Source of the DNA: an uncultured Roseburia sp.
Lineage (GTDB): Bacteria > Bacillota_A > Clostridia > Lachnospirales > Lachnospiraceae
NCBI GenBank assembly: GCA_900753715.1
Contig: CAAEAE010000007.1
Span: 1-24,928 of the forward strand
Reading direction: 5' to 3'
Length of the DNA: 24,928 nt
Both the position numbers and the translations under genes were made by a program. The notes beneath the pieces are model-generated. The model was not told where the DNA came from. It did not search any database and saw nothing but the letters and a program-made list of their open reading frames with translations. Shown piece by piece: positions 1,219 through 16,258 of this stretch (positions within the stretch are counted from its first letter, which is position 1; each line of letters opens with the position of its first letter).

Positions 1219-2229
1219 ATGGAAAAGGCAAAGAAAAAAATTTCGCTGGATTCCTTAAAGGGCGGATTAAAAGACTGGAAAGAAGATTCACAGTTTGCCA
1301 ATGACAGAGTGCGCTGGGCAACAAGTGGAAAAGCGTTTTTACTTGGATTCTTCCGGTTAGTGCTTATCATTGGAATCTGCTATGTTATCTTAGGACCGGT
1401 GATTGGTATCATCAGCAGTTCTTTTTTCTCCGATGCGGATAACTACAACCCGATGGTTTACCTGATTCCGCAGGAGCCGACATTAGAGCGTTACAAGATA
1501 GCAATCCAGTATCTCGATTACGGCAGAACCGTAACGGCATCTCTTCTGTATTCACTGACACTGATGCTGATTCAGGTTTTGGTATGTTCTATGGTCGGAT
1601 ACGGATTTGCAAGATATGATTTTCCGTTTAAGAAGTTATTGTTTGGATGTGTCGTCGTAATGATTGTAATTCCGACCCACACCATCATGCTTCCACTTTA
1701 CATGACATTTGCAAAGTTTGATGTATTTGGAATCCTGAAGCTTACAACGGGTTCGGCAGTAAACCTTCTGTCCACCCCGATACCGATGTATATCATGACC
1801 TTATTTGGATGTGGTTTACGCTCCGGTCTTTATATTTACATTTTCAATCAGTTCTTCCGCGGACTTCCGAAGGAAATTGAGGAAGCGGCATTTGTGGACG
1901 GAGCCGGAACATGGTATACGTATTTCAGAATTATGTTAGTAAACGCACTTCCGTCTGTTGTAACCGTAGCAATCTTTTCTATGGTATGGCAGTACAATGA
2001 TACGTTTTACGCAAACTTGTTTTTGATTAGCGATGACATCGTAATCAGTAAGAAGATTTCTACCATTGAGGCAACCATTTCAAACGTAGAGAAAATCTTA
2101 GACCCGAATATTCTGGAATTGTTCCTGGATGCCGGTATTGTGCTGATTATGATTCCAATTATCATTATTTACATAGCATTACAAAAGCAGTTTATTGAGG
2201 GTGTTGAGAGAAGTGGTATCGTCGGGTAA
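1219..2229 (+). CDS. Carbohydrate ABC transporter permease, UgpE/AraQ type (MalG-like)
   Basis: A 336-residue partner permease. A cytoplasmic N-terminal extension of about 45 residues precedes six predicted membrane helices, the first around residues 46-70 (LVLIIGICYVILGPVIGIIS). The EAA loop is near residues 219-245 (EIEEAAFVDGAGTWYTYFRI), a good match to MalG-type permeases, and the C-terminus ends in the typical QKQFIEGVERSGIVG. The start is supported by an AGGAGA ribosome binding site shortly upstream. With the preceding gene it should form the heterodimeric membrane channel of a CUT1 sugar importer. It is followed closely by two lipoprotein genes, the repeat protein and the substrate-binding protein, in one apparent operon. 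Confidence 0.94.
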   Translation: MEKAKKKISLDSLKGGLKDWKEDSQFANDRVRWATSGKAFLLGFFRLVLIIGICYVILGPVIGIISSSFFSDADNYNPMVYLIPQEPTLERYKIAIQYLDYGRTVTASLLYSLTLMLIQVLVCSMVGYGFARYDFPFKKLLFGCVVVMIVIPTHTIMLPLYMTFAKFDVFGILKLTTGSAVNLLSTPIPMYIMTLFGCGLRSGLYIYIFNQFFRGLPKEIEEAAFVDGAGTWYTYFRIMLVNALPSVVTVAIFSMVWQYNDTFYANLFLISDDIVISKKISTIEATISNVEKILDPNILELFLDAGIVLIMIPIIIIYIALQKQFIEGVERSGIVG

Positions 2230-2281
2230 GAGGCGATGCACTTATCTTATAAAAACAACTATTTTAAAGGAGGAGAAAGAG

Positions 2282-4195
2282 TTGAAAGCAAGAAAAATCA
2301 TGGCATTATCGTTGACAGCAGCAATGACTTTGAGCATGGCTGCCTGTGGTGACAACAGTGCGCAGACAAACGGCGGAGATACCGCAGGAGCCGGCACAGA
2401 AGTTACCAGCGAACAGGGCGGGGCAACAGAGGCCACAGAACAGGCATCAGATGCCGGCACAGCCGACAATGATGCAGCAGACGCAGGTGAGGTTAGTATC
2501 GACTTTGAAGATGGGGTGTACGGATTTGTCGGAGTTGACAAAACTGTAAATTCCGCAGGCGATGATTCCGCACTTTCTGTAGAAGATTTTGCAGGATCTA
2601 AGGCATTAAAGGTAACCGCAGCTTCCAGCAAAGCAAGATTCCTTGGTATTCAGGTGGATGCGCTTCTTGGGGACAGCGCTTCTTCCGTGAAGACAGTTGA
2701 GATGTCCATCGGTACTTCCCGTTCTGACGGAACATTTGCAGCAACTTCCGGTAATATCTATGCATTCCTTGGCGAAGACAATGCAAAGAATGCACAGGAG
2801 TGGTCCGTATATCTTGAGACCGCAAATCCAAAGACCGTTACCTATACGGTTCCGGACGGACAGTCTTTTGTGGCAGGAAACTACATGGTAGTTTCTCTTG
2901 AAACAGATGCCGGCGAGACACCGGCAGATTTCTACGTTGACAACATCGTATTCAAAGATGCATCCGGAAATGTCTTAGCAGCTGATACCTCTGCTGAATA
3001 TGCAGCAGCAGATACCGGCGTTGACAGATCAAACCTTTGCAGCTTAAAGAATGCAGTAGAGTTTGAAGGCTTTGCAACCAGTGGAGATGGCTGGGCACAG
3101 AACGGCTATGATATGCCGCAGGAAATTATTGATGCATTAGTTCCGGGTTCTGTTGTAGAAATTTCTTACAGCAGTGAAAACGGAGATATGTGGCTTGTAA
3201 TGCCGGGCGCAGCAGCAGGCTGGATGAGAGTTGGTCAGGGCAATGCAGACGAAAGCGGAAGCGATGCAGCAGTCATCAACGGCTCTAAGAACATTGCTCA
3301 GATTACCTATGAGCAGATTGCAGCAGTATGTGGTGACGATGTATCTACCTGGGGTGCTACAATGCAGTGTGAGGCATCCGGTGCTTGGGAAGTTTACAGC
3401 GTAAAAGTTGGAACAAAGGCTCCGAATTATTCTATTACAGATGCAGTAGAATTTGAAGGATTTGCAACCAGCGGAGACGGCTGGGCACAGAACGGATATG
3501 ATATGCCGCAGGAAATCATCGATGCATTAGTTCCGGGCTCTATTGTAGAGATTACCTACAGCAGTGACAACGGAGATATGTGGCTTGTAATGCCAGGTGC
3601 AGAAGCAGGCTGGATGAGAGTTGGCCAGGGTAATGCAGACGGAAGCGGAAGCGATTCTGCAGTATTTGACGGAAGCAAGTGCTACATCACCTACGAGCAG
3701 ATTGCAGCAGTATGCGGTGACGATGTATCAAAATGGGGAACCACAATGCAGTGTGAAGCATCCGGTGCATGGGAAGTTTACGGTGTCAAGGTTGGAAAAG
3801 CAGCAGAATTTGCAATGGTTAAGAATCCGGTAGAATTTGAAGGATTTGCAACCAGCGGAGACGGCTGGGCACAGAACGGCTTCGATATGCCGCAGGAAAT
3901 CATTGATGCATTAGTTCCGGGTTCTGTAGTTACCATTAATTACACCAGCGAAAACGGAGATATGTGGCTTGTAATGCCAGGCGCGACCGCAGGCTGGATG
4001 AGAGTAGGTCAGGGTAACGCTGATGGAAGCGGAAGCGATTCTGCAGTCTTCAACGGAAAGACCTGCCAGATTACATACGAGCAGATTGCAGCAGTATGCG
4101 GCGACGATGTATCTGCATGGGGAACCACAATGCAGTGTGAAGCATCCGGCGCATGGGAGGTTTACAGCGTATCCGTAGGAACCGCTGTAGAATAA
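2282..4195 (+). CDS. Surface lipoprotein with a jelly-roll-like domain and three tandem ~130-residue repeats; putative glycan-binding protein
   Basis: The likely start is TTG at 2282, 8 bases after AGGAGG (2268-2273). This gives 637 residues beginning with a lipoprotein signal (lipobox MAAC, lipidated Cys22). An open frame continues upstream to 2195, but that start would lie inside the permease gene and hide the signal peptide. A low-complexity linker (about residues 23-69) leads to a beta-rich domain (about 70-233) that ends FYVDNIVFKDASG, reminiscent of jelly-roll carbohydrate-binding modules. Three tandem repeats then start near residues 257, 387 and 515. Each carries GDGWAQNG, EIIDALVPGS, NGDMWLVMPG, GWMRVGQGNAD, QITYEQIAAVCGDDV and MQCEASGAWEVY. 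The invariant Trp residues would suit sugar stacking. No catalytic signature is visible. Encoded between the permeases and the binding protein, it is inferred to capture glycan at the cell surface. The family assignment of the repeats is not known to me. Confidence 0.85.
   Translation: MKARKIMALSLTAAMTLSMAACGDNSAQTNGGDTAGAGTEVTSEQGGATEATEQASDAGTADNDAADAGEVSIDFEDGVYGFVGVDKTVNSAGDDSALSVEDFAGSKALKVTAASSKARFLGIQVDALLGDSASSVKTVEMSIGTSRSDGTFAATSGNIYAFLGEDNAKNAQEWSVYLETANPKTVTYTVPDGQSFVAGNYMVVSLETDAGETPADFYVDNIVFKDASGNVLAADTSAEYAAADTGVDRSNLCSLKNAVEFEGFATSGDGWAQNGYDMPQEIIDALVPGSVVEISYSSENGDMWLVMPGAAAGWMRVGQGNADESGSDAAVINGSKNIAQITYEQIAAVCGDDVSTWGATMQCEASGAWEVYSVKVGTKAPNYSITDAVEFEGFATSGDGWAQNGYDMPQEIIDALVPGSIVEITYSSDNGDMWLVMPGAEAGWMRVGQGNADGSGSDSAVFDGSKCYITYEQIAAVCGDDVSKWGTTMQCEASGAWEVYGVKVGKAAEFAMVKNPVEFEGFATSGDGWAQNGFDMPQEIIDALVPGSVVTINYTSENGDMWLVMPGATAGWMRVGQGNADGSGSDSAVFNGKTCQITYEQIAAVCGDDVSAWGTTMQCEASGAWEVYSVSVGTAVE
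3050..4192 (+). repeat. Three in-frame tandem coding repeats (390, 384 and ~369 bases)
   Basis: Units begin at 3050, 3440 and 3824. They stay highly similar at the nucleotide level, with long identical runs such as those encoding ATSGDGWAQNG and EIIDALVPGS. They differ mainly in the linker between units and in the GSK/NGK loop before ITYEQIAAVC: the first unit has two extra residues there (IAQ). The near-identity suggests recent duplication or ongoing homogenisation by recombination. Copy number may therefore vary between strains, and the region may be prone to misassembly. Confidence 0.93.
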
Positions 4196-10867: not shown

Positions 10868-11644
10868 ATGATATTTGAAACACACGCACATTACGATGAT
10901 GAGCGGTTTGCAGAGGACAGAGATACGTTACTGGCATCCCTGCCGGAGCGCGGAATTGGAAGAATTATAAATGTAGGTTCAACACTTGTCTCTACAAAGG
11001 AAACACTCGCAATTGCACAGAATTATCCTTATGTTTACGCTGCGGTCGGGGTTCATCCAAGCGAAATCGGGGACTTGAATGAAGAGACGTTCGCCTGGTT
11101 AAAAGAGCAGACCAGACAGGAAAAGACAGTGGCGGTAGGAGAAATCGGTCTGGACTATTACTGGGATAAAGAACCGGAAGTACAAAAGGCACAGCGCTAC
11201 TGGTTTAAAAGACAGATGGAGCTGGCGCGTGAGGAAACTCTTCCGGTCATTATTCATTCACGGGATGCAGCGGAGGATACGATGCGTCTGATGCAGGAAA
11301 TCCACGCAGAGGAGATACCGGGTGTGATACACTGCTATTCCTATTCCAAAGAAATGGCGCTCGAATTTGTCAAAATGGGCTATCGGATTGGAGTGGGCGG
11401 TGTTGTGACCTTTAAAAATGCCAGAAAGTTAAAGGAGACTGTCGAGGCGGTTCCGATGGAAGCGATTCTGTTGGAAACAGACTGCCCTTATATGGCACCG
11501 GAACCACACCGTGGAACGCGCAATGATTCCTCAAACATTCCGTACGTCGTAAATACAATTGCACAGATAAAGGGAATCAGTACCGATGAGGTCGAGCAGA
11601 TTACCTGGGAGAACGCCATGCGGCTCTTTACGCGGGTGAGATGA
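10868..11644 (+). CDS. tatD: TatD-family metal-dependent hydrolase / DNase
   Basis: A 258-residue TIM-barrel amidohydrolase-superfamily enzyme. All metal-site motifs are present: THAHYDD (His6, His8), VGEIGLDYY (Glu92), VIIHSRDA (His130), GVIHCYSYS (His155) and LETDCPYMAP (Asp205). Length is typical for TatD (about 255-265 residues). Known family members are 3'-5' exonucleases or DNases linked to DNA repair and turnover of nucleic acids, and some act as D-aminoacyl-tRNA deacylases. An AAGGAAA ribosome binding site precedes the ATG. In many Firmicutes tatD is followed by rnmV and ksgA; here ksgA lies about 5 kb downstream, with a divergent repair-type pair, a chemotaxis receptor and a small gene between. 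No clear terminator separates it from the convergent gene that ends at 11710. Confidence 0.92.
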   Translation: MIFETHAHYDDERFAEDRDTLLASLPERGIGRIINVGSTLVSTKETLAIAQNYPYVYAAVGVHPSEIGDLNEETFAWLKEQTRQEKTVAVGEIGLDYYWDKEPEVQKAQRYWFKRQMELAREETLPVIIHSRDAAEDTMRLMQEIHAEEIPGVIHCYSYSKEMALEFVKMGYRIGVGGVVTFKNARKLKETVEAVPMEAILLETDCPYMAPEPHRGTRNDSSNIPYVVNTIAQIKGISTDEVEQITWENAMRLFTRVR

Positions 11645-11709
11645 TGTTGGGTACGGGAAAAAACATCCGACGCCAGCGTGGGAACATGTGTCGCAGGAAG
11701 CATTGCATC

Positions 11710-12519
11710 TTATGAGAGTGTGCGGGATAATTCCGGTGTGTCCTTCCAGTAACGTTTTGAAATCAACTGCATCTGTAAATCCGGATTCGTGCGCGCCTTG
11801 ATGGCGATACTGTCAAAGAAGGCAAGCCAGAGCTTCTGGTATTCCGCTTCATTTGCGGAACAGCGTGTCAGCCTGTCGCGGTCAAGGTCGGTGGCATCGG
11901 TCAGCAGATAGCCCTTTCCGGCACGATGGATGGCAACGGTATTTCTGGTCTCGTCAAAAATCATAAAGTTCTCCGGGGAAAGCCGGTCGGTAAAATGTTC
12001 TGCCAGATAGGGCAGGACATTATTTTTGGGGTGAATGGTGGCAAACAAAACGCCATTTTCAAGTTCCTTAAAGCGTAAAAACCCAAGCAGATGGGCTGCT
12101 TCACGGTTTGTGGCACGGCAGAGCTCAAAGACACGCATGACGCATGGCTCTCCGAGCGCGAGAAGAACGCGGTTTCCGTCATTGCAGGAGAACGCAAGGA
12201 GAATCGTGCGGTAGATGGCATCTGCCTTGTCCAAGGCGGGTTTGTGGGAGACACCTGGTTTATCGGAGGATTCCCTTGCCATTGCAGTCTGATAGATGGC
12301 TTCGTAAAATTCTCTGCCAAAGCGCTCGTTTAACGTCCGCACGACTTTGGCGGTCTTCTCCACAGAAGGCGTGACAATCCGGTATTCAGAAAAAAGTTCG
12401 TAATTTTCCGGCTCTCCGGTGGTGAGCCGGATATTTTTGTGCCCAAGCCTGCTGGCGCAGGCATCATAGACACCGGTAAAAATCCCTTCCGGGCTGTCTT
12501 CACATACAAATACATACAT
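11710..12519 (-). CDS. DUF4130 / TIGR03915-family protein, partner of the radical SAM protein (putative DNA repair or modification)
   Basis: A 269-residue protein matching, by recall, the TIGR03915/DUF4130 family. Evidence is the N-terminus MYVFVCEDSPEGIFTGVYDA, the central HLLGFLRFKELENGVLFATIHPKNNVLPYLAEHF (quoted here only in part: LLGFLRFKELENGVL; NNVLPYLAEHF), and the C-terminal LWLAFFDSIAI and NPDLQMQLISKRYWKDTPE. In some bacteria this domain is fused to a uracil-DNA-glycosylase-like domain; that part is absent here. The family almost always sits beside a TIGR03916 radical SAM protein, as here, 32 bases downstream of its stop. Reaction and substrate are unknown. I chose ATG 12519, with AAGGA 11 bases upstream and a start that fits the family; the in-frame ATG at 12531 abuts the AAAGG and has no usable spacing. 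Confidence 0.85.
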   Translation of the reverse strand: MYVFVCEDSPEGIFTGVYDACASRLGHKNIRLTTGEPENYELFSEYRIVTPSVEKTAKVVRTLNERFGREFYEAIYQTAMARESSDKPGVSHKPALDKADAIYRTILLAFSCNDGNRVLLALGEPCVMRVFELCRATNREAAHLLGFLRFKELENGVLFATIHPKNNVLPYLAEHFTDRLSPENFMIFDETRNTVAIHRAGKGYLLTDATDLDRDRLTRCSANEAEYQKLWLAFFDSIAIKARTNPDLQMQLISKRYWKDTPELSRTLS

Positions 12520-12551
12520 GGCAAAATCCATCCTTTCTTAAATGTCCGGGT

Positions 12552-13895
12552 TCATGAGACAGCCTCACTCTGGATGACGGTGGTCTGTGGAATGGCAAGG
12601 TCACAAAGTGTATCCGTATCAAACAGGGAGAGCTGCTTGTAACCACAGTTTCTGAGCTCGCGGGGAATCTGCGTGCGGTCTGCCATCAGATTGGTGCAGA
12701 TATAATCTTCATCGAGCTTTGTATGGTACATCATTCTGCCGGAGCAGGTAATAAAATAAAGGGCGCGCTTTAAAACAACGCCGATGCGCTTTAAATCCGG
12801 GAAATCCAGACGGTTCTGCCGTCTTGCCGCAACAATGCGCTGGGCGGACTTGTAACCGATGCCTGGGACCCGTAAAAGCGTCTGGTAGGGCGCAGAGTTA
12901 ATCTCCACCGGAAACTGTTCGAGGTGGCGCAGTGCCCAGTCACATTTCGGGTCTAAATAAATGTTAAAATCCGGGCGCTCCTCGGACAGCAGTTCATCTA
13001 CCTTAAAGTGATAATAGCGCAACAGCCAGTCTGCCTGATAGAGCCGGTGTTCCCGCAGCAGAGGTGGTCCGCCCGGAAGCATGGGGAGATTGGAGTTGTG
13101 GTTTACATTCACAAAGGCGGAATAGAACACGCGCTTGAGCGAAAAATGGTCGTAAAGTCCTTCCGCGACGCGCATAATCTGATAATCACTTTCAGGGGTT
13201 GCACCGATAATCATCTGCGTGCTCTGTCCGGCGGGAACAAAGGTCGGAGTCTTGCGATAGGGAATCAGCTCATTCCGGTTTGCGGTGATGCCGTTTTGAA
13301 TCAGCCGCATCGGTTTTAAAATCGTATTGCGCGATTTGCACGGAGCAAGCTTCTTTAAACCGTCCGCGGTGGGGAGCTCTAAGTTGATGCTCATGCGGTC
13401 TGCCAGACAGCCGGTCTTTTCAATCAGTACCGGGTCAGCGCCCGGAATCGCCTTCACATGGATATAGCCATTAAAATGGTATTCATTGCGGAGCTTGAAT
13501 AACGTCTGGTAAATCAGATCCATCGTGTAGTTTGGGCTAATCATGATGCCGGAACTTAAGAAAAGTCCTTCTATATAGTTCCTGCGGTAAAATTCCATCG
13601 TCAGCGTGCAGACCTCCTCCGGCGTGAATGACGCGCGGGGAACATCGGAGTTGCAATTGTTCTGGCAGTAGGCACAGTTAAAGATGCATTCGTTTGTATA
13701 GAGAATCTTGAGCAGGGAGATACAGCGCCCGTCCGCCGCGAAGCTGTGGCAGATTCCTGCAGCAACAGAATTGCCGATGCCGTCTTTCTTCCCCTTGCGG
13801 TCAACACCGCTGGAAGTGCAGGCAACGTCATATTTGGCGGCATCTGCTAAGATAGAAAGTTTCTCCATCAGAGACATATTTTGCTGGATATTCAT
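12552..13895 (-). CDS. Putative DNA modification/repair radical SAM protein (TIGR03916, rSAM_link_UDG type)
   Basis: A 447-residue radical S-adenosylmethionine protein. The 4Fe-4S ligands form CX3CX2C at Cys70, Cys74 and Cys77 (ECIFNCAYCQNN). It is preceded by the family-typical segment AAKYDVACTSSG and GICHSFAADGRCISLLKILY with additional Cys49 and Cys58. The barrel shows LFLSSGI, YIHVKAIPGAD and MSINLELPT. A helix-hairpin-helix (about residues 336-365: LLRVPGIGYKSAQRIVAARR) indicates nucleic-acid binding. TIGR03916 members are annotated as putative DNA repair or modification enzymes, but I know of no demonstrated reaction. AGGAGGT (13902-13908) sits six bases before the ATG. The promoter is flanked by two LexA-box-like sites. 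The DUF4130 partner follows in the same transcript. Confidence 0.92.
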   Translation of the reverse strand: MNIQQNMSLMEKLSILADAAKYDVACTSSGVDRKGKKDGIGNSVAAGICHSFAADGRCISLLKILYTNECIFNCAYCQNNCNSDVPRASFTPEEVCTLTMEFYRRNYIEGLFLSSGIMISPNYTMDLIYQTLFKLRNEYHFNGYIHVKAIPGADPVLIEKTGCLADRMSINLELPTADGLKKLAPCKSRNTILKPMRLIQNGITANRNELIPYRKTPTFVPAGQSTQMIIGATPESDYQIMRVAEGLYDHFSLKRVFYSAFVNVNHNSNLPMLPGGPPLLREHRLYQADWLLRYYHFKVDELLSEERPDFNIYLDPKCDWALRHLEQFPVEINSAPYQTLLRVPGIGYKSAQRIVAARRQNRLDFPDLKRIGVVLKRALYFITCSGRMMYHTKLDEDYICTNLMADRTQIPRELRNCGYKQLSLFDTDTLCDLAIPQTTVIQSEAVS

Positions 13896-13972
13896 TATGT
13901 TACCTCCTGCTTTCTGGATTGCTCATGGGAATCAATTGCAAGTGAATCATGCGTCCTGTCAGGGCAGAAAAA

Positions 13973-13984
13973 GAACGAATGTTC
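13973..13984. promoter_or_regulatory. LexA (SOS) box, perfect GAAC-N4-GTTC core
   Basis: GAACGAATGTTC matches the Gram-positive LexA/DinR core GAAC-N4-GTTC exactly and differs from the extended consensus CGAACRNRYGTTYG only at the first base. It starts nine bases downstream of the -10 box of the radical SAM gene, over the expected transcription start. Bound LexA should block initiation. Confidence 0.75.
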
Positions 13985-13993
13985 GATATGAAA

Positions 13994-14022
13994 ACTATAA
14001 CACAGCCGGGCAAAAATTACAA
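13994..14022 (-). promoter_or_regulatory. Sigma-A-type promoter of the radical SAM / DUF4130 operon
   Basis: On the minus strand, -35 TTGTAA (14017-14022) and -10 TATAGT (13994-13999) are separated by 17 bases. Transcription should start near 13987, about 90 bases before the start codon at 13895. The promoter is bracketed by LexA-box-like sites at nine bases on each side. Confidence 0.7.
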
Positions 14023-14031
14023 GAGAAAATC

Positions 14032-14043
14032 GAACACTTGTTT
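14032..14043. promoter_or_regulatory. Second, imperfect LexA box
   Basis: CGAACACTTGTTTG (14031-14044) matches CGAACRNRYGTTYG with one mismatch and has the core GAAC-N4-GTTT. It lies nine bases upstream of the -35 box of the minus-strand promoter and well upstream of the chemotaxis receptor promoter (-35 at 14076). Confidence 0.55.
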
Positions 14044-14075
14044 GAGAAAATTTTGTAAAATGATGCAGCGTTTTC

Positions 14076-14103
14076 TTGAAACTGACAGAAAATATGGTAT
14101 GAT
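14076..14103 (+). promoter_or_regulatory. Promoter of the chemotaxis receptor gene
   Basis: TTGAAA (14076-14081) and TATGAT (14098-14103) are 16 bases apart, a good sigma-A-type promoter about 65 bases upstream of the start codon. It does not look like the flagellar sigma-D type (TAAA/GCCGATAA). The divergent LexA-box-like sites do not overlap it. Confidence 0.6.
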
Positions 14104-14167
14104 AGAACTATAGCAACAGTATCGTTTTTGCTGCGTACAAATGAATAGGGAAGATGGGGGAGAAAGT

Positions 14168-16258
14168 ATGAAATCGATTAAAACCAAAATTATAGCAGCC
14201 GTGATTTTTTGTTCATTGATTTCAGCCGGAATCTGCGGTGCAATCAGTATTGCAAATGCATCGAAGAACTATGAGGCGGATTCCAAACAGGAGATGCTTC
14301 TTACAGCGCACAACCAGGCGCTCGAACTTAACGCAAGCATGGAACAGGTAGAGCAGTCGGTAGATACGCTGTATGATGTGGCACTCGGAAGACTTGACGA
14401 TGTGAACAAGTTCAAGACAAGCAGTGAGTATGTGGATTCCTACACAGAGGGCATTAAAGATATGATGCTCCAGACTGCAACGCACACCAAGGGGGCGTTG
14501 ACAGCATATATCCGTTATAATCCGGAATTTACGGAACCGACCAGTGGAATTTTCATGACAAGAGATGACAGCAACAGTGCGTTTTCCATTGTGACACCGA
14601 CGGACTTCTCGATGTATGACCCGTCTGATATTGAGCATGTCGGCTGGTATTATATTCCGGTAGAAAATAAACAGGCGACCTGGATGTCTCCGTATTTGAA
14701 TTCCAACATTAACGTTTACATGGTTTCCTACGTCGTTCCGATTTATGTGGACGGAGAGTCCATCGGAATCGTTGGCATGGATATTGACTTTGGCGTATTC
14801 ACCGATATGGTGGATGCATCGGATATTTTTACCACCGGTTATGCGTTCCTGGCGGATGCGGATGGAAATATCGTTTACCATGAAGGACTTGACAATGGAA
14901 CCGCAATCAGCGCAGCGGGAGATGGTTTGCAGACAGTTGCATCCGCACTTTCGGACTCTTCCAAAGAAAATCAGTTTATTCATTACAGCTACCAGGGAAA
15001 AGATAAGGTGCTCTGCTATGAGACACTTGAGAATGGCATGAAATTTGTGCTGACAGCGCCGAAATCAGAGCTTCATGCTGAGGCGAGCCGGAATGCAAAT
15101 ATGATATTTGTAGGCGCAGTGTTCGCAGTTGTCATCACGGCGATAATCGGTTTCATACTTGCCGTTACGCTGACAAAACCAATCCGCCAGATTGATACGA
15201 TTGTAACGAGCACGGCAGAACTGGATTTTTCCCACAATGCAGCAAACGAGCAGCTTTACAAGAGAAAAGACGAGACGGCACATATGGCAAAGTCGCTCCA
15301 TGTCATGCGTAAGAATCTGCGGGGAATGGTAGCGGATATCCGCACGACCTATGACAACCTGAAAGAAAGTATGGAACAGCTTGCGCAGACGACCGAGCAG
15401 GTAAGCTCTATGAGCAAAAAGAACTCTGACACCACGCAGCAGCTTGCAGCAGCGATGGAAGAGACTGCGGCAACGATGGAGGATGTCAATGATAACATTA
15501 CAGATGTAAGAAAACGTGCTGATGCCATCGAAGAACGTTCCAGAAATGGAAAAGAGGCGGCTGTTGAAGTGCGTGGCAGAGCAGACCAGTTGCGGAAGAC
15601 GACGGATGAGGCAAGCGCTAAGACGACAGAGATGTACGAGAGTGTACAGCAGAAGACCGTGGAGGCAATTGAGCGTGCGAAGGCGGTGGAGAAGATTAAT
15701 CAGCTTACGCAGGCAATTCTTGAGATTTCAAGCCAGACCAATCTTCTGGCATTAAACGCATCCATTGAGGCGGCAAGAGCCGGAGATGCAGGAAGAGGAT
15801 TTGCTGTTGTCGCAGAAGAAATCGGACAGCTTGCAACCCAGACCTCTCAGACCGTAGGCGATATTAACAATATCATTGATGAAGTAAACGGTGCCGTAAA
15901 GAATATGGCAGACTGCCTCAAGGAGAGCACCGATTTCTTAGAGTCAGCAGTATTAAAGGACTACGGCAGTTTCAGCCAGGTTGCAGAGGAGTATACGAAG
16001 GATGCGGCGACCTTTGAAAATGATATGAATGATATCAGCAGGGAGGTAGACACATTGCTTGCGGCAATTGTCAATATCTCCGATGCTGCGGATTCCGTCA
16101 GCCGCACGGTAAATGATGCCGCAAACGGTGTGACCGATATCGCACAGAAAACGCAGGATGTGGCAGATATGGTGGAGACAAACACCGGACTGGTAGAGAG
16201 CAATCAAGGAAATATGGAGCGCCTACGCAATATTATTACAATGTTTAAGAATGAATAA
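14168..16258 (+). CDS. Methyl-accepting chemotaxis protein with extracellular dCache-type sensor
   Basis: A 696-residue transmembrane receptor. A membrane helix (about residues 8-28) is followed by an extracellular dCache_1-like sensor (about 30-305) with [20 protein letters not shown] and [20 protein letters not shown]. The second helix is at about 312-333, then HAMP (about 334-390) and a long cytoplasmic coiled coil. The highly conserved signalling tip is around residues 517-556 ([20 protein letters not shown], then [11 protein letters not shown]), which contacts CheA and CheW. The Arg of the amino-acid-binding dCache motif before WY appears to be missing, so the ligand is probably not a standard amino acid. 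No C-terminal CheR-docking pentapeptide is present. The start at 14168 follows GGGGGAG by five bases; the in-frame ATG at 14141 lacks a ribosome binding site. It implies a motile organism. Confidence 0.93.

Follow-up and report, generated by a model that had tools for sequence, protein, structure and literature searches.

The window, by which is meant the whole stretch of 24,928 nucleotides of DNA that was analysed, carries on its minus strand a gene for a radical SAM protein of family TIGR03916 (rSAM_link_UDG) and, 20 bp beyond it, a gene for a TIGR03915 / DUF4130 protein, the second of the presumed operon. A gene pair of this kind has been called a DNA-repair system from its domain content. 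The features that are relevant to the regulation and function of this pair are as follows.

11710..12531, minus strand: TIGR03915 / DUF4130 protein, 273 aa (TIGR03915 209 bits, cut-off 112.25; PF13566 162.1 bits, cut-off 27)
12552..13895, minus strand: radical SAM protein, TIGR03916 (rSAM_link_UDG), 447 aa (687.8 bits, cut-off 343.5)
12621..12635, minus strand: QLSLF, residues 421-425, beta-clamp-binding-like, in a tail predicted to be disordered (AlphaFold pLDDT <50)
12810..12911, minus strand: helix-hairpin-helix motif, residues 329-362 (PF12836 31.0 bits, cut-off 27)
13665..13688, minus strand: CX3CX2C radical SAM cluster motif (C70, C74 and C77 in the translation, all invariant throughout an alignment of 27 proteins)
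13903..13908, minus strand: ribosome-binding site AGGAGG, read from the sequence
13972..13985, minus strand: predicted promoter-proximal LexA operator, minus-strand sequence CGAACATTCGTTCT (17.9 bits, best of the window)
13994..13999, minus strand: predicted -10 element TATAGT, extended, preceded by TG (sequence and sigma-70-like scan)
14017..14022, minus strand: predicted -35 element TTGTAA (sequence and sigma-70-like scan)
14031..14044, minus strand: predicted LexA operator upstream of the -35 element, minus-strand sequence CAAACAAGTGTTCG (16.6 bits, second best of the window)

Elsewhere in the window, at 2195-4195, a 666-aa lipoprotein-like open reading frame with three near-identical repeats (EFEGFATSGDGWAQNG...) was noted by eye.

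It had been claimed in an initial annotation of this DNA that a perfect GAAC-N4-GTTC palindrome covers the expected transcription start of a minus-strand promoter (TTGTAA, 17 bp, TATAGT), and that a second, near-consensus box lies nine bases from the -35 element. The palindrome is present without any mismatch as GAACGAATGTTC at 13973-13984, the sole mismatch-free GAACN4GTTC match in the window, and CGAACACTTGTTTG at 14031-14044 is the sole mismatch-free match to CGAACN4GTTYG (plus strand), with a spacing of 59 bp between the two boxes. The promoter does lie between them, and the distance of nine bases is correct for the 12-bp core of the outer box; taken as 14-bp boxes, the outer one is 8 bp from the predicted -35 element and the inner one 8 bp from the predicted -10 element. 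The position given to the palindrome did not stand, as the inner box starts 8 bp after the -10 element and thus just downstream of the expected start, at about +3 to +16 if transcription is assumed to start 7 bp past the -10 element. TTGTAA-17-TATAGT is the only minus-strand sigma-70-like site across 11600-14300; a promoter scan of this interval returned 3 promoter-like sites, against 2.9 expected from shuffling, and the promoter by itself is therefore not significant.

The boxes were scored with a LexA matrix for which only lexA and recA promoters of related Lachnospiraceae served as source. It comprises 85 distinct sites, none of them from the radical SAM operon, and 3 of 137 sites were left out for unread bases. 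LexA was found above cut-off in 27 of 30 genomes of relatives (and in 6 of 8 further-checked genomes of relatives) and RecA in 28 of the 30, and a GAACN4GTTC-like site, allowing at most one mismatch and at most 300 bp upstream, precedes the gene at all 27 lexA loci and all 28 recA loci. Under this matrix the two boxes score 17.9 and 16.6 bits and rank first and second in the window, the third-ranking site reaching 10.0 bits, and their scores fall within the spread of those used for training (mean 15.4 bits, sd 2.4). The scores are much the same when the matrix is made from lexA sites alone (17.5 and 16.7 bits) or from recA sites alone (18.1 and 15.9 bits).

Genome contigs were scanned with the radical SAM protein, which gave a near set of 80 loci with identities of up to 84%, mostly labelled Roseburia or Lachnospiraceae; a DUF4130 protein named Roseburia sp. 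is 97% identical to that of the window. In 80 of 81 loci the DUF4130 gene follows that for the radical SAM protein; the remaining locus (L067) ends with its contig. Site counts refer to the 79 loci, the window included, that offer 150 bp or more of upstream sequence, L002 and L039 being dropped as too short. Of these 79, 68 have a site of at least 12 bits between -250 and +30 relative to the radical SAM gene; the near loci are mutually related and their counts hence not independent. Among 280-bp control windows from the same loci, 22 of 2257 have such a site, some of these being rarA operators. Four of the 68 are marginal (L065, L070, L076 and L078, each at 12.1 bits). The 11 misses comprise six loci headed by rarA, three with weak sites (L060, L068 and L072, with best sites of merely 10.3-10.5 bits), L075, which offers only 166 bp of upstream sequence and no site of at least 12 bits, and L013, where neither a LexA box nor rarA was found before the radical SAM gene although lexA is present in its genome, an apparent loss of LexA control. 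LexA was not found in the genomes carrying L065 and L068. As a separate observation, L055, L060, L065, L068, L070, L076 and L078 have two degenerate sites (e.g. AGAACAAATGTATG and GGAAAATTTGTTTG) 38-39 bp apart, perhaps reflecting weaker control.

Beyond these relatives, TIGR03916 occurs above cut-off in 109 of 291 genomes of the class of a near relative, presumably Clostridia, and TIGR03915 in 105 of the 291. Ninety of the 109 loci were examined, namely 30 that were returned (among them L142, from the same genome as L001) and 60 picked from listed places, mostly with 1 kb upstream. A site of at least 12 bits was found in 28 of the 30 and 54 of the 60, thus in 82 of 90 class-level loci, compared to 0 of 59 adjacent control windows, which were taken for the 60 only and not for the 30. 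CGAACATATGTTTG was read as the site in 13 of the 60. No site of at least 11 bits was found in 6 of the 60; at L168, with 216 bp available, there is none of at least 9 bits, and the best at L169 reaches 10.8 bits. Conservation of the boxes before orthologues, which the initial annotation had named as a check on its reading, is thus borne out in both the near and the class-level loci. A single site of at least 11 bits is present in 38 of the 60, and since a single box is commoner outside the near relatives, bracketing of the promoter is not required for control.

Architecture was counted in 81 loci, those headed by rarA being measured at rarA, with sites of at least 8 bits lying 15-75 bp apart. 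Two boxes were found in 74 of the 81, and their spacing is 55-62 bp in 51 of these 74. All but one of these 51 loci (the exception is L080) have a promoter of the form TTG-17-TANNNT between the boxes. In these 50 the promoter begins 7-10 bp past the first box and ends 4-11 bp short of the second, with TTGCAT or TTGCAA as the -35 element in 27 of the 50 and a TG close before the -10 element in 48. The bracketing of the promoter that had been remarked at this single locus is, consequently, a conserved design. Other layouts were also seen: in L037, L038, L040 and L052 the -35 element (TTGCGT or TTGTGT) is embedded in the upstream box and the boxes are 40 bp apart, and some loci with a spacing of 23-31 bp (e.g. 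L042 and L063) have a -10-like sequence immediately next to the first box. A strict bracket pattern, modelled on the radical SAM operon and hence biased towards it, was searched in 30 whole genomes and matched 22 distinct places in 19 of them, 16 being the radical SAM operon, 2 lexA and 4 others; the reversed pattern gave 0 matches in the 30 genomes. One of these 4 others, L238 (G007:C145:3914-3984), precedes an open frame that is sigma-factor-like by eye.

The six rarA-headed loci without a site before the radical SAM gene (L048, L051, L054, L057, L064 and L077; the rarA match of L051 spans query residues 149-442 only) have rarA directly upstream of that gene and in the same direction. In each of them the box pair, with a promoter between and a spacing of 55-60 bp, stands before rarA, which places the operator pair at the front of what is presumably one transcription unit. 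Overall, a same-strand rarA lies upstream in 12 of 81 loci and adjoins the radical SAM gene in 11; besides the six, rarA is directly upstream in L043, L045, L066, L069 and L071. No rarA was found beside the radical SAM gene in any of the 90 class-level loci, each with about 1-1.5 kb upstream at most, so the linkage is observed among near loci only.

These data bear on three other explanations of the boxes. The palindromes might have arisen by chance in an AT-rich intergenic region, and loose matches to the motif are indeed no commoner in the window than expected (13 found against 8.7 expected with at most one mismatch, 27 against 36 with at most two), for which reason the argument rests on the trained matrix, the pairing and the conservation. 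However, a pair of sites of at least 14 bits within 100 bp was obtained in 0 of 400 dinucleotide shuffles and conservation exceeds that of the controls, which makes coincidence extremely improbable. It is very unlikely, too, that the operon is controlled by a different repressor that recognises a GAAC-N4-GTTC-like site, for instance a phage repressor or a paralogue of LexA; further, weaker TIGR00498 matches do exist in several relatives, but related genomes have the same motif before lexA and recA, and the two boxes of the window score like the training sites.

A third possibility is that the boxes act on the divergent MCP (chemotaxis) gene at 14141-16258, either instead of the radical SAM operon or together with it. 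At a distance of 31 bp past the outer box there is a promoter-like TTGAAA-16-TATGAT (14076-14103), and some influence on the MCP gene is possible. Yet both boxes flank the minus-strand promoter while neither overlaps that of the MCP gene, and where rarA heads the operon the box pair precedes rarA. Furthermore, only 3 of 81 loci (the window, L008 and L009; some loci have little upstream sequence) have an MCP relative in the vicinity of the radical SAM gene, compared to boxes in 68 of 79, which argues that the boxes are not those of the MCP gene. An assignment of the boxes to the MCP gene, or to both genes, is therefore very unlikely.

Taken together, the LexA/SOS control that was initially suggested for the radical SAM / DUF4130 promoter is strongly supported by matrix scores, shuffles and conservation. 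Judging from the DNA sequence, the TIGR03916-TIGR03915 operon is, with high probability, a member of the LexA (SOS) regulon that is repressed at both sides of one promoter, and the gene pair very probably switches on upon DNA damage. It is established for the SOS response generally that LexA cleaves itself when triggered by RecA filaments on damaged DNA. In the undamaged cell, a LexA dimer would occupy each operator, and the single extended -10 promoter between them would be shut. The inner dimer, covering about +3 to +16, would block open-complex formation or promoter escape, and the outer one (about -44 to -57) would exclude contacts of RNA polymerase upstream of the -35 element. Repression of this kind may be tight, as the initial annotation had suggested. 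Upon damage, self-cleavage of LexA triggered by RecA filaments would free both sites and allow joint synthesis of the radical SAM enzyme and the DUF4130 protein, presumably from one transcript. Two-sided occlusion is more likely than looping because, by our reasoning, a distance of 55-62 bp (59 bp here) is short and rigid. The other box arrangements keep the same logic, and the bracketed promoter together with the alternative box layouts of relatives offers a natural series on operator position, repression and SOS timing.

SOS control is evidence of pathway membership and not of biochemical function, for which the proteins themselves provide some indications. The consensus sliding-clamp motif is given as QL[S/D]LF, and QLSLF occurs in B. 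subtilis PolC, according to the excerpted text of that report (PMC12309361). Of the near radical SAM proteins, 74 of 79 have a QLSLF-type pattern in their final 70 residues (2 of 81 were skipped as incomplete), the other five having QLSFF or QISFF. The pattern is also present in 17 of 28 class-level proteins, the rest having variants such as QLSFF, QISFW and QLRMF; among control open frames, which run from stop to stop and are not necessarily genes, 6 of 604 contain it. The tail thus resembles a clamp-binding motif in an accessible segment, and binding to DnaN is putative. RarA itself begins with MEQLSLF or MEQLTLF in the 10 rarA loci checked.

Structure models added a lead for the DUF4130 protein. 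The radical SAM model (mean pLDDT 73.7) matches general radical SAM enzymes, e.g. HydE and lipoyl synthase, from which nothing specific is learned, and an alignment search by sequence gave only short helix-hairpin-helix and radical SAM stretches, with a best E of 9e-4. The DUF4130 model (pLDDT 92.8) is matched best by DHH-type structures, with RecJ and Cdc45 prominent, at a weak to moderate level. An alignment search by sequence with the DUF4130 protein gave no match, sequence profiles detected no relation between DUF4130 and DHH or RecJ-Cdc45, and apart from DUF4130 itself no Pfam family has matches in more than 2 of 53 members. As the fold matches are weak to moderate and find no support in sequence, a RecJ/Cdc45-like DUF4130 stays a lead.

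The helix-hairpin-helix motif, the QLSLF tail and the linkage to rarA are hints that the pair belongs to repair at the replication fork, its reaction being unproven. The class-level loci examined, 82 of 90 of which carry LexA-like sites, tie the pair to the DNA-damage response, and the replication fork is indicated by the QLSLF tail as well as by the operons with rarA. A more speculative and, as a whole, rather doubtful proposal is that the pair might constitute a core, class-wide SOS module of Clostridia at stalled forks, with a clamp-tethered radical SAM protein (QLSLF) and a RecJ/Cdc45-like DUF4130 protein, made with RarA in some Lachnospiraceae and with LexA at both sides of the promoter there.

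COG4277 is presumably the same family as TIGR03916. A COG1573-COG4277 operon has been placed under LexA in Bacteroidetes and, by citation, in Verrucomicrobia and Alphaproteobacteria, as stated in the excerpt of that study (PMC8565304). It has SOS control in common with the operon described here, whereas the LexA motifs given in that excerpt differ from ours and the partner there is a uracil-DNA glycosylase (COG1573) instead of a stand-alone DUF4130 protein. A figure legend links DUF4130 to radical SAM photolyases and uracil glycosylases (PMC3765255), and a domain pair of the same kind was previously described near the SOS network by gene neighbourhood, with LexA sites unmentioned in the portion of text concerned.

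Within Clostridia, LexA control of CAC3343-CAC3344 in Clostridium acetobutylicum was predicted in 2013 from footprint and expression, with the remark, in the passage concerned, that there was no orthologue in RegPrecise (PMC3828012). This would be such a gene pair under LexA, the assignment of CAC3343 to TIGR03916 being putative, and the excerpted account mentions neither operators on both sides of the promoter nor conservation across the class, rarA or a clamp motif. That such a pair is under SOS control has therefore already been predicted and is not new. The term 'radical SAM' is absent from the main text of a paper on the gut SOS meta-regulon (PMC3998124) and from that on the in silico LexA regulon of C. 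difficile (PMC4234289). Two other candidate precedents (PMC7739468 and PMC9380542) were set aside, as the excerpts do not allow one to tell which radical SAM protein is meant. Within the open-licence literature searched, no earlier description was found of the bracketed design, the rarA operon or the clamp motif, and what appears to be new, at the level of sequence, is the scale, the bracketed promoter, the linkage to rarA and the conserved, clamp-binding-like QLSLF tail.

With regard to promoter design, E. coli lexA has two LexA operators, as given in the excerpt of a further report (PMC9210283), and both this promoter and the lexA promoters of Lachnospiraceae resemble that of the radical SAM operon in having several LexA sites. 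The arrangement differs, however, in that the lexA promoters of these Lachnospiraceae (L081-L107) have 3-5 LexA-like sites in 21 of 27 loci, with several pairs 13 bp apart, whereas in the radical SAM operon the core promoter is typically flanked by a single site to either side.
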